Source: Letharia columbiana (taxonomy: Eukaryota; Ascomycota; Lecanoromycetes; Lecanorales; Parmeliaceae). Taken from it: a stretch of DNA of 64,000 nucleotides. Positions 23,417 to 50,898 of this stretch are shown here, piece by piece. The stretch is taken from NCBI RefSeq assembly GCF_014066305.1, contig NW_023501051.1, positions 1-64,000 on the forward strand, written 5' to 3'. The notes under the pieces are model-generated. The model had not been told where the DNA came from and did not search any database. It worked only from the letters and a program-made list of their open reading frames with translations. Both the position numbers and the translations under genes were made by a program. The first letter of the stretch is position 1. The number at the start of each line of letters is the position of its first letter.

Positions 23417-25599
23417 TTAGGCCTCCAACGATTCGATGCCAGGAAGCCGATATCCAAAATCCATTATCACAGCCCGGCTATCTTGACTGGTAGCAATAAT
23501 GCGCCTGTAGTCTGCTTTGGCGCTCAGTATCCAACTCGATGTCCATTTGGTAAAGTTGACGATCATTTCACCACTCCGCATGTCATAGGCTTTCACGCTG
23601 GTATCGTAGCTGCCACTGACGACCCTACCACTGGCGCTGTCGAGATGCAAAGACCGAACCAAGCCCTCGTGACCCTTCATTTCGCGAACCAGCTCGCCAG
23701 TGCTTGTGTCGAATTGGTAAATGACCTGATCGTTTCCACCAGCTAGGATGGTTCGAGAATCGGGACTGAACTCCACGCAAGCCATACCTCTGTCTTTGCT
23801 GGGAAACTCCTTGATACAGAGACCGGACGTTAGGTTCCACAGCTTTGCGATGCCATCACCGCTTGCAGATACTACAAGGTTGCCTCTCAATTGCACTGCG
23901 TTCACTGGCCCCCGATGCCCACTCAATTTCTTCATAAGTTCACCAGTGCTGCGATCCCACAAACAGACAGTCGCATCTTTCGAGCATGATACGATGTGCT
24001 TTTCGTCAAAGCAAACATCGAGAACGCCGGCTGTATGCTCTCTGAGCCGTCGCATGGGCCGATAACCGGCTTTGATGTCCCAAATGATCAAGGTGCAGTC
24101 GGATGATCCGGTGATCATGATTTTATCATCGTATTGCAAGCACAGGATTGATCCGTTGTGGTACATGAAGAGCCAAGGAGCGGTGCGCTCAGGTTCAACA
24201 ATGGATTGAGACGAGAAGACCTTCGCGAACGGTCTTTGGCCTCGATCTGCCACATCTGCTGGGAGTGGAGGTACTGCGGATCCAGCACCTCTGCTAGGCA
24301 CTCCTAGTACCTTGATGCACTCATAGGTACGAGCATCCCAGATCCGAATTGTCCTGTCCCTGGAACCTGTAAGAATCTTATCCTCGTCGAATTGGACGCA
24401 GTAGACACTGTCAGTATGGCCTTCGAGATAGATAGCAGCCGCGTATCCGTCGTTCCAGCGCTGCTGTAGTGCCTTTCGAGCTCGCCACATGCTTTTCCAC
24501 TCTTGGCAAGAAAACACTTTGCCAAGGCCTGGGCCTCGGCCATTACCTGCCATAGTCGTATTCCTTTGGGATATGTCCTGGAATTCTGAATGAAAAACAT
24601 CCTTCCAAACATGGCGAGAGCTAGCTGACTGGTGCCAATCGTGCGAGACCAGCTCTGCATTTAGTAACGAGCTAGCATCCAAATAAGAAAGTATATGTCC
24701 AACGAGTTCCTGTGGAAGAGCAGATAGAGGATCTGCCCAGATGTTAGCGAAGTAGGGTTGTGATGGCCTCGGGTCTCCATACCTTGACGAACGACCGGAA
24801 TATCAAAGTCGAATTCGGCCATTGTCTCTCCGCCATCCCGAACCTCGATTCCCACTCCACTCTCTGAGTCTCTTGTAAGGTGCGGTTCTGCCAGTGTGAT
24901 GTTTCGCATGGAGTCCAGGATCTCATTCTGCGCGGCTGCTGCTGCTCGTGCCGCTGCTCCGCTGGCGAGGTTTAACGACGGTTTCGATGGTTCCAGTTCG
25001 ATAGCACAGCCTGGCATTGCTGGCAAAGCAGTGAAGTCACCGTCCTCGAAAACCAACGATCCATCATATGGAGGCGGTGATGTCATTGACGAAGATGGTG
25101 TAGAAGGGCGATGCTTCAGGCTCGTACTCATGCAGCGTCGAAGCCAGCCTGACGTTTTGGACTGAGCAAGCGCTTCTTTCTCCACGATATAATTGGGGCC
25201 TGGTCTCGAGAAATTGTGTATGTTATGGCTTGGCTCTCCATACGCCGTTTTGCCGAAAGAGAGGAAGCTCTTCGTGCGCTGCGATGGAGTCCTCTTGGGC
25301 TGTGATCGTAATTCGTCGTTGGCATCGCCAACCCCGGAAAAGCTTTTGCGCGGTTTCCCATGCGACGCCGTTGAGGACCTCAATGTATCTTCTGACAGCT
25401 CTAGTCTGTGTCCGCTGTGTTCTCCGTATGTCAAAGGTGTAGAAGGTGTTGGTAGAAGCGCTGAAGGCGTGCCGGGGGGCGGTTTTGATGGTGCGAGGAA
25501 TCCCTCGTATTCCAAGAAGAGCTCGTGGGCGCCCGCTGTAGGCTTCTCTTTTCTTGGTTTCTTGTCTGAAGAAGTCGCTCCTCTTCTTCTGGAGAACAT
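23417..25599 (-). CDS. F-box/WD40-repeat protein (SCF substrate adaptor)
   Basis: Predicted substrate receptor of an SCF (Skp1-cullin-F-box) ubiquitin ligase. Proposed exons are 25599-24783 and 24732-23417, joined by a 50-bp intron with CTAAC branch and GCAG acceptor, giving 710 aa. Residues 1-272 are a basic, Ser/Pro-rich disordered N-terminus. The F-box (DPLSALPQELVGHILSYLD, about 273-315) begins at the exon junction. A seven-bladed-type WD40 propeller runs from about 370 (LEGHTDSVYCVQFDEDKIL) with repeated GH...WD spacing (TIRIWD, TLIIWD, TVCLWD, IAKLWN) to about 690. A proline/Ala-rich insertion lies between the first two blades. It resembles Cdc4/Fbw7- and Pof1-type proteins, but I cannot assign the exact orthologue or substrate. 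Confidence 0.88.
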
Positions 25600-31648: not shown

Positions 31649-31653
31649 AAAAA
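31649..31653 (-). terminator. Pol III terminator of tRNA-Thr
   Basis: A run of five T residues on the minus strand starts three bases after the tRNA 3' end, the usual RNA polymerase III stop signal. Confidence 0.7.
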
Positions 31654-31655
31654 CA

Positions 31656-31779
31656 TGCGCCCACTAGGAATCGAACCTAGAATCTCTAAGAATGGATTAG
31701 TCATTAGAATTTTTCTCTTGATTTGCAATTGACTTACCGTGATTACTAGTCACGCGCCTTACCATTTGGCCATGAGCGC
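31656..31779 (-). tRNA. tRNA-Thr(AGT) with a non-canonical intron
   Basis: The 5' part (31779-31738, 42 nt) gives the acceptor strand GCGCTCA, D-arm GCC...GGC and a complete anticodon arm CGTGA-CTAGTAA-TCACG with anticodon AGT (Thr). The 3' part (31685-31656, 30 nt) gives variable loop AGATT, T-arm CTAGG-TTCGATT-CCTAG, acceptor strand TGGGCGC and discriminator A. Acceptor pairing is complete (one G-T wobble). The A box (TGGCCAAATGG) and B box (GGTTCGATTCC) fit the Pol III consensus. The halves are separated by 52 bp (31737-31686). A normal eukaryotic tRNA intron would sit after position 37 inside the anticodon loop; that is impossible here because the 3' side lacks bases able to pair with CGTGA. 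The 72-nt product without the insert is canonical. CCA is not encoded. Confidence 0.85.
31686..31737 (-). other. 52-bp spliceosomal-looking intron within tRNA-Thr
   Basis: The insert starts GTAAGT, has GACTAAT with its branch-point A about 11 bases from the end, and finishes TTAG. These are the same signals, and a similar length, as the mRNA introns of neighbouring genes. It lies exactly between the last base of the anticodon stem and the first base of the variable loop, so its removal restores a normal tRNA. Whether it is removed by the spliceosome, by another route or not at all cannot be told from sequence. Confidence 0.7.
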
Positions 31780-32820
31780 ATGTAAATTTTTGACTTATTT
31801 TACTATCTATAATAATTTTTAGCACGGAATTAGCGAATTTCTACAAGCCCTAAATGTGCTAGTACTACTTCTATTCTCTTCCTTAACCTTATAATCAAGC
31901 GAGAATGGGTTTCGAAGCCGCCAGCTTGCCTTTTCTTCGCATTGGTGGTATTTTGCCTATTTGTTCAATGAAAATTGTATGAAACGTCATTTCATACACC
32001 CTCTCTTAGTCCACTACTCACTATAGGCATGGTAGTTCGCTATGGGTCATTGTTATTGGGGCCAGCGACGTTAATAGGCTTTGGCATTGCGCAAGAGCTC
32101 AGCTTCTCGCGGTTATAACATCATATTGTACGGCTGCAATCCTTCAAGGCTGTTAAAGTGCCAAGCACAGCTTGAGAAGGCGTTTCCCTGTCGAAAAGGA
32201 TCAAAACTTCACCCGGCGTAAACTTCACCGCGGACGTGACCTAGGTATCTAATGCAGTAATTACCAAGTTCGCTGAAAGCTTTGAGGAATAAGAGCTTCT
32301 CCGAACACTGAAAATTTGTAAATATCGCCAAGGCCGATAACTACTTAATTGACTTAAGACCCTTATCTTGCTAAGTGTCTAAAGCGCTACCCAGCTGAAT
32401 GGTCATCTTCACTCACCGACTCTCCCCAGAATGTCCCTGCAATCAAGTTCCCAGTGCTCCCGAAGTTCGTATCCACAGCCCCTATAAACAATTTCAATGA
32501 ATTTGAAAATCTCAATAGCCATACACCAATTCGATAATTGACGACTTTTCCGACGAGCTTTCTAACAATCGACTTGACATGTAAGCGCTATCACGGCAGT
32601 TGATTTTGGTGGCGACTGTCCAGAGGATGATTTCTGTTCTGGCAATAAGGAAGCTTCATACTCGCTGGTTACTTGAGACAACTTGATCTCGGGCTTCAAA
32701 GGAGCAGTAGCTCGTGCTGTTGTCAACGCCATGACGAGTATCTTGACAGGATAATATGGCGTTGGTCGTAGTCAAACGATCCGTATAGCCATCTCAGTCC
32801 TCTCGATTTCCTATCATAAG
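31780..32820. other. Intergenic region with decayed coding fragments
   Basis: Apart from the SDR fragment at 32043-32218, no intact gene is seen. Stops in all frames and loss of recognisable motifs after about 32220 suggest decayed sequence. Confidence 0.45.
32043..32218 (+). pseudogene. Short-chain dehydrogenase/reductase (SDR) fragment
   Basis: Three consecutive pieces in three different frames together resemble the N-terminal Rossmann region of an SDR: WVIVIGASD (from 32043), GFGIAQEL (from 32077) and SASRGYNIILYG followed by PSRLLKCQAQLEKAF (from 32096). In SDRs the glycine-rich motif TGASDGIG-x-G is followed by a strand and helix in this order, so two frameshifts within about 55 bp have broken the gene. 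No catalytic YxxxK region was found downstream. Closest in feel to fungal 3-ketoacyl-CoA reductase-like SDRs, but this is inference from a short stretch. Confidence 0.5.
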
Positions 32821-50845: not shown

Positions 50846-50898
50846 GAAGTGAAAGCACAAGATCAGAGATGAATCCTCTGATCTTGAGCTTTCACTTC
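50846..50898. repeat. 23-bp near-perfect hairpin
   Basis: The arm from 50846 (GAAGTGAAAGC-A-CAAGATCAGAG) pairs with the arm ending 50898 across the 7-base loop ATGAATC, with a single A-A mismatch. A T-rich run (CTTTTTTTCTT) follows the right arm, so the plus-strand transcript would look like a hairpin plus U tract. Candidates are a small MITE, a hairpin RNA or a 3' processing structure. Confidence 0.8.

Follow-up and report, generated by a model that had tools for sequence, protein, structure and literature searches.

A nuclear tRNA-Thr(AGT) gene of Letharia is split by a 52-bp insert, which is very probably a U2-type spliceosomal intron within a functional gene and one of many such introns in this organism. 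The anatomy of the gene, the recurrence of such inserts, their splice and branch signals, their likeness to local mRNA introns and the absence of uninterrupted copies from the searches made all support this reading. Chance is excluded by the set of 24 distinct inserts, not by the Thr insert singly. The phenomenon is genome-wide, larger than the preliminary description of this locus had proposed.

Anatomy of the interrupted tRNA-Thr(AGT) gene

The locus lies in a 64-kb window (the whole stretch of DNA analysed), in which ARAGORN, run without introns, called no tRNA anywhere. The Rfam tRNA model RF00005 matches positions 31779-31656 on the minus strand with 53.5 bits (E 1.1e-8; gathering score 29), and in its alignment a single long insertion separates the anticodon stem from the variable loop. 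ARAGORN identifies the joined exons as a 72-nt tRNA-Thr(agt). The coordinates and the insert length given in the preliminary description proved exact, the donor, branch-site and acceptor signals that it named are present in the sequence, and the A box, B box and T5 terminator were recovered by pattern match and reading (Table 1).

The locus has the cloverleaf, the A and B boxes and the terminator of a nuclear tRNA gene. Broken stems or a broken promoter together with an intact copy elsewhere, which characterize a tRNA pseudogene, were not found for it. The insert is located after the anticodon stem and leaves the anticodon loop (CTAGTAA) unbroken, so that it does not occupy the site of a 37/38 intron. 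It possesses three features of U2-type introns, namely GT-AG ends, a branch motif near the 3' end and a length like that of mRNA introns. The boundaries of the Thr insert alone are weakly determined, as a refit based on structure only leaves 10 tied boundaries, GT-AG among these.

Table 1 Features of the interrupted tRNA-Thr(AGT) gene, with a comparison mRNA intron from the same window
Feature	Position	Strand	Basis
5' exon of tRNA-Thr(AGT), 42 nt: acceptor strand, D arm, whole anticodon arm	31738..31779	-	RF00005, ARAGORN on joined exons
Insert, 52 nt, read as U2-type spliceosomal intron	31686..31737	-	GT-AG ends, branch motif, length; 1 of 25 in 20 loci
5' splice site GTAAGT	31732..31737	-	read from sequence
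Branch-site motif GACTAAT, branch A at 31697, 11 nt before insert end	31696..31702	-	sequence
3' splice site TTAG	31686..31689	-	read from sequence
3' exon, 30 nt: variable loop, T arm, acceptor strand, discriminator A	31656..31685	-	RF00005, ARAGORN
B box GGTTCGATTCC	31667..31677	-	pattern match
A-box core TGGCCAAATGG	31762..31772	-	read from sequence
T5 run, Pol III terminator-like, begins 2 nt past 3' end	31649..31653	-	pattern match, reading
TATA-like stretch, ~30-35 nt upstream	31808..31814	-	reading; function putative
Comparison mRNA intron of F-box/WD40 gene, 50 nt, GTATGG...CTAAC...GCAG	24733..24782	-	tblastn with 99% identical L. lupina protein, reading

Elsewhere in the window, positions 50846-50898 form a short-looped inverted repeat whose arms measure 22 nt; it matches a miRNA family with 28.5 bits, far below the cut-off of 83.

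Interrupted tRNA genes across the genome

The genome searched, that of a lichen-forming ascomycete, comprises 161 contigs totalling 52.2 Mb. Searching it with the tRNA model yielded 62 matches, with 63 of the 1723 first-look candidates scored, and most of these matches fall on contigs C94 and C110, both taken as mitochondrial. On the mitochondrial-looking C94 one set of tRNA genes recurs about 90.5 kb away, which probably means that the assembly runs more than once around the circular mitochondrial genome. Further loci came from reading over-long or weak nuclear matches of the tRNA model and from B-box patterns. A pattern for T-loop-interrupted tRNAs gave 19 matches versus 47 in the reversed control, and of its four matches examined, on C65, C4, C5 and C66, the one on C65, Arg(TCG), was the sole tRNA. 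Further B-box patterns gave 172 matches versus 225 in the control (100 of the 172 were examined), another gave 92 versus 59, and a search with joined yeast-like tRNA gave 3 matches. Ten B-box-pattern matches (on C1, C3, C9, C14, C19, C48, C77, C82, C83 and C153) belong to a dispersed repeat beginning like a B box (GGTTCGACCCCGTCATGTACGGGGCGAAAAACATTTT and variants), which is possibly a tRNA-like short interspersed element.

Candidates that by eye are not tRNA (L088, L090, L091, L099, L104-L106, L112, L113, L116, L117, L120, L122, L124 and L126-L135) were rejected, and L040, L041 (two hits) and L049 were not counted because they are doubtful or look mitochondrial. The two hits of L041 (a Lys and Arg pair with many transitions) and L049 (Val) are mitochondrial-like tRNA sequences on other contigs, perhaps old mitochondrial insertions. 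Genes for Asn, Asp, Cys, Val, initiator Met, Glu(CTC), Pro(CGG), Ala(TGC) and Thr(TGT) were not recovered in the genome searches.

Inserts of the GT-AG kind are present in 20 of the 39 accepted nuclear tRNA loci; 'about half' is an estimate, because the tRNA inventory is incomplete. These loci hold 25 inserts, one to four per locus, and the ends as read are GT-AG in 24 and GC-AG in one. A second Ser(CGA) locus has the same gene sequence as the first and was dropped as a duplicate, leaving 24 distinct inserts. Lys(CTT) contains four inserts, whilst Ile(AAT) and Gln(CTG) contain two each, one of the Gln inserts being that with GC-AG ends. By eye, the inserts were assigned to the D loop in Arg(TCT), Trp-1, Thr(CGT), Lys(TTT), Arg(CCG), Ile(AAT), Lys(CTT) and Gln(CTG), to the D stem in Lys(CTT), Gln(CTG), Met and Phe, to the anticodon stem in Lys(CTT) (27/28), to the anticodon loop in Tyr (32/33), to positions around the variable region in Thr(AGT), Ser(GCT), Ser(AGA), Lys(CTT), Ile(AAT) and Trp-2, and to the T arm in Arg(TCG), Leu(TAA), Arg(CCT) and Ser(CGA), the last at two loci. 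With the inserts removed, all 20 loci are called by ARAGORN as tRNA with the expected anticodon. An ordinary 37/38 intron is also present in 13 of the 20, and in Tyr the two kinds lie five nucleotides apart in the anticodon loop. The 19 loci without inserts are L032, L033, two in L034, L035-L038, L042, L047, L048, L050, L051, L089, L092, L094, L100, L115 and L123; by reading, 12 of them have a 37/38 intron, and for some the isotype differs from that of ARAGORN.

The inserts were first spotted by eye seeking GT-AG. A boundary refit with free ends, scoring tRNA pairing and conserved tRNA bases only and holding the length within 3 nt of the reading, lessens this bias but uses the gene ends and lengths as read. 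The best-scoring set includes GT-AG for 20 of the 24 distinct inserts, compared with 8 for the next dinucleotide pair; within 2 points of the best, the counts are 23 and 13. If the comparison is limited to the 13 inserts with six or fewer ties, GT-AG is included for 9 and the next pair for 3. Another boundary is favoured by 1-2 points in four of the 24, these being Thr(CGT), the GC-AG insert of Gln, Met and the second of Ile, and inserts in loops have up to 92 tied boundaries. Single inserts are weak as boundary evidence; the whole set is not.

A CTRAY branch motif is found 6-32 nt before the insert end in 19 of the 24 inserts, versus a mean of 3.0 and a maximum of 9 in 500 dinucleotide shuffles, and is absent from the other five. 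Where present, it lies at a distance of 9-18 nt. The lengths have a median of 53 nt and range from 49 to 59 nt, plus one insert of 83. Moreover, the last base of the 5' exon is G in 17 of the 24 (background 0.31) and the last two are AG in 10 (background 0.07), which resembles mRNA donor sites and is counted in favour of spliceosomal introns. Seven local mRNA introns, one from the F-box/WD40 gene in the window and six from a chaperonin gene, measure 47-63 nt and have the branch A 10-15 nt from the end. The F-box/WD40 gene is 99% identical to a Letharia lupina protein over 95% of the query. In the chaperonin gene, four of the ten gaps could not be resolved and were dropped, and for some of the other six the intron was chosen by eye from several in-frame candidates. 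The proposal in the preliminary description that the Thr insert is a spliceosomal intron is thus strongly supported, since it is one of 25 inserts in 20 loci with GT-AG or GC-AG ends, a branch motif in 19 of 24 and the length of mRNA introns.

Transcription, copy number and alternative origins

An alternative that accepts the introns as spliceosomal is that the interrupted tRNAs derive from Pol II transcripts, by read-through or from promoters of their own, and not from Pol III; they would then be coupled to splicing in the usual way. The inserts in D loops and T arms split the A- or B-box regions in several genes and could hamper TFIIIC binding, in line with such an origin. We nevertheless regard it as unlikely. 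The six loci recovered by searches that did not demand a T run (Thr, Arg(TCG), Leu(TAA), Arg(TCT), Trp-1 and Ser(AGA)) all show a run of four or more T no further than 13 nt from the 3' end, the T runs of the other 14 of the 20 being no independent evidence because the search patterns required them. In addition, TATA-like stretches occur upstream of most interrupted loci, and intron-bearing genes for U6, an RNA of the Pol III class, are known in fungi. A depletion of T runs within the introns was rejected as proof of Pol III, as T5 or longer runs occur in 0 of 24 with 2.2 expected (P(0) 0.09, not significant); T4 runs number 7, versus 7.6 expected from shuffles. We infer transcription by Pol III as the preferred reading.

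Another possibility, raised in the preliminary description, is that an insertion with chance or borrowed splice signals killed one tRNA-Thr(AGT) gene and that intact genes elsewhere supply the tRNA. This is very improbable, as the stems, both promoter boxes and the terminator of the Thr gene are all intact and no second Thr(AGT) gene was found by the 5'-half pattern, the 3'-half pattern or the joined-exon search. The 5' half has a single exact occurrence in the genome, and none of the four places with three mismatches is a second Thr(AGT): one is an Arg(ACG) gene and three hold no tRNA (by ARAGORN, and by cmscan for two of them). The same half gave 0 matches each in viral and prokaryote contigs. 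The 3' half has one exact occurrence and one other, with a single mismatch, at C50:171914. When 19 predicted mature tRNAs, each extended by CCA, were searched against the genome, the 38 matches comprised the exons of these genes themselves, Leu and Ser relatives with different anticodons and the C50 fragment, with no full-length uninterrupted copy among them. The count of other intact tRNA-Thr(AGT) genes proposed as a check returned none in these searches, and the only relative is this 42-nt C50 fragment, which lacks the insert.

The same holds beyond Thr. For 17 of the 18 interrupted isoacceptors, including Trp, Phe, Tyr and both Lys, an uninterrupted copy was not found, which makes dead copies unlikely. 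Met is the sole interrupted isoacceptor with a second locus without insert (L037), whereas both Trp loci are interrupted. The tRNAs for Trp, Phe, Tyr and Lys are indispensable to the cell, and the same kind of insert is present in every copy found, so these genes cannot all be dead and must be spliced, barring intact copies that were missed. With the partial scoring of candidates and the incomplete inventory, uninterrupted copies may have been missed, and the assembly may lack copies; these points count in favour of a killed gene.

The C50 fragment (C50:171900-171941, 42 nt) is identical to the predicted mature Thr tRNA at 40 of 42 positions, from within the anticodon through CCA, and it crosses the predicted splice junction without the insert, which counts towards the spliceosomal reading. 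On reading its surroundings, neither a D arm nor an anticodon arm was seen upstream, nor a T run a short way downstream, and cmscan called no tRNA there. In the simplest reading, the fragment is perhaps a DNA copy of a 3' tRNA half from spliced, CCA-tailed RNA, that is, a footprint of reverse transcription. It could also be what remains of an ancestral gene without the insert, its CCA being due to chance; a 7-nt upstream stretch that pairs with the acceptor end of the fragment would allow for such a remnant.

The inserts have also to be compared with ectopic tRNA introns of the endonuclease type, cut at bulge-helix-bulge (BHB) motifs and joined by tRNA ligase, as in Cyanidioschyzon merolae. 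The available portions of two papers report 34 of 43 nuclear tRNA genes of this alga as disrupted, many by introns at odd positions (PMC9602550, PMC3978253), and state that its ectopic introns are tied to BHB motifs, whereas many in the Guillardia theta nucleomorph have no defined BHB (PMC3978253). In those portions both organisms resemble Letharia in having several introns per tRNA gene, in the D, anticodon and T arms; GT-AG and branch signals go unmentioned in the text examined (PMC9602550, PMC3978253), unlike what is seen in the Letharia inserts. An A-I pair is possible in 13 of the 24 inserts and in 12 of the 19 ordinary 37/38 introns, and a 4-bp central helix in 1 of 24 but also 0 of 19, so that these crude tests do not separate the two kinds. 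An endonuclease-type origin is highly unlikely, for it gives no reason for the GT-AG ends, for the branch motif at 9-18 nt in 19 of the 24 or for the length of mRNA introns.

Known introns in structural RNA genes and a proposed maturation pathway

Ordinary eukaryotic tRNA introns occupy the fixed 37/38 position, one nucleotide 3' of the anticodon, have no GT-AG and are cut by the tRNA endonuclease, and tRNA splicing by endonuclease and ligase is held separate from mRNA splicing. Bhattacharya et al. reportedly described spliceosomal introns in the nuclear rDNA of lichen-forming ascomycetes in 2000, and Canzler et al. are said to have treated those of fungal U3 snoRNA and U6 snRNA genes in 2016. 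According to the available part of a later study, spliceosomal introns occur in lichen rDNA and one was excised from Pol I transcripts in yeast, the Cladonia grayi case being a 57-bp intron with a GUAAGU donor (PMC8527467). These rDNA introns, together with the removal by yeast, are counted in favour of the spliceosomal reading. Like those in Letharia tRNA genes, they are short, spliceosomal and located in structural RNA genes of lichen fungi outside Pol II; their host is rRNA (Pol I), whereas the Letharia hosts are about twenty tRNA genes. A 2017 paper, in the part available, states that among small structured RNAs U3 and U6 alone are known to carry an intron frequently (PMC5832005). The introns of fungal U3 and U6 are likewise ordinary spliceosomal introns within small structured RNAs, but their hosts are not tRNA, and the best Letharia U6 match also has an apparent intron.

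In the literature searched, consisting of titles and abstract openings with subscription journals mostly outside the coverage, nuclear tRNA genes with spliceosomal introns did not appear. The word stem 'spliceosom' is absent from a review of tRNA introns (PMC4090602), and in the accessible part of the Cladonia grayi genome paper 'tRNA' occurs once, in an organelle table (PMC6652019). The class of host gene, tRNA, appears to be new, the class of intron being already known.

In the proposed pathway, Pol III would transcribe the Thr gene from the A and B boxes to the T run, the spliceosome would excise the 52 nt between tRNA positions 43 and 44, the endonuclease would take out a 37/38 intron where one is present, and the joined RNA would be trimmed, CCA-tailed and used. 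In Tyr, the GT-AG insert splits the anticodon loop (32/33), so its removal would probably have to precede substrate recognition by the endonuclease. With about half of the recovered tRNA genes carrying mRNA-type introns, the cell probably needs the spliceosome to make its tRNAs. We lean towards the broader view that translation in Letharia is rooted in the spliceosome, with the sole Trp, Phe and Tyr genes, both Lys genes and other tRNA genes being Pol III genes that are divided into as many as five pieces and depend on the spliceosome, often with endonuclease splicing of the same molecule as well. If so, there is a tRNA maturation pathway of two machineries, which could brake growth and may be general in lichen fungi beside the rDNA introns.

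If mRNA-type introns reside in essential tRNAs, precursors of tRNA can be processed by the spliceosome; tRNA genes would then tolerate intron gain at almost any position, and two splicing systems would process one molecule. The inserts offer about 25 natural, apparently sole-copy test cases, and tRNA finders that expect 37/38 introns only would misread or miss many such genes. The inserts also bear on why lichen fungi gather introns in structural RNA genes and on the proposal, made in the available part of the rDNA study, that rDNA introns of lichen fungi slow growth (PMC8527467).

Spliceosomal introns would have invaded about half of the recovered nuclear tRNA loci and, apparently, U6 as well. 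The best U6 match in the genome, at C17:919165-919323, reaches 41.2 bits (below the gathering score of 44) and is split, which is likewise counted in favour of spliceosomal introns. Positions 1-42 of the U6 model align at C17:919165-919205, followed by a 53-nt stretch with the form GTTGGT...TACTGAT...CTAG inside the ACAGAGA box and then by the remainder of the model. A second stretch, GTATGT...TACTAAT...AAAG, is a candidate interruption that may break the 3' part of U6.
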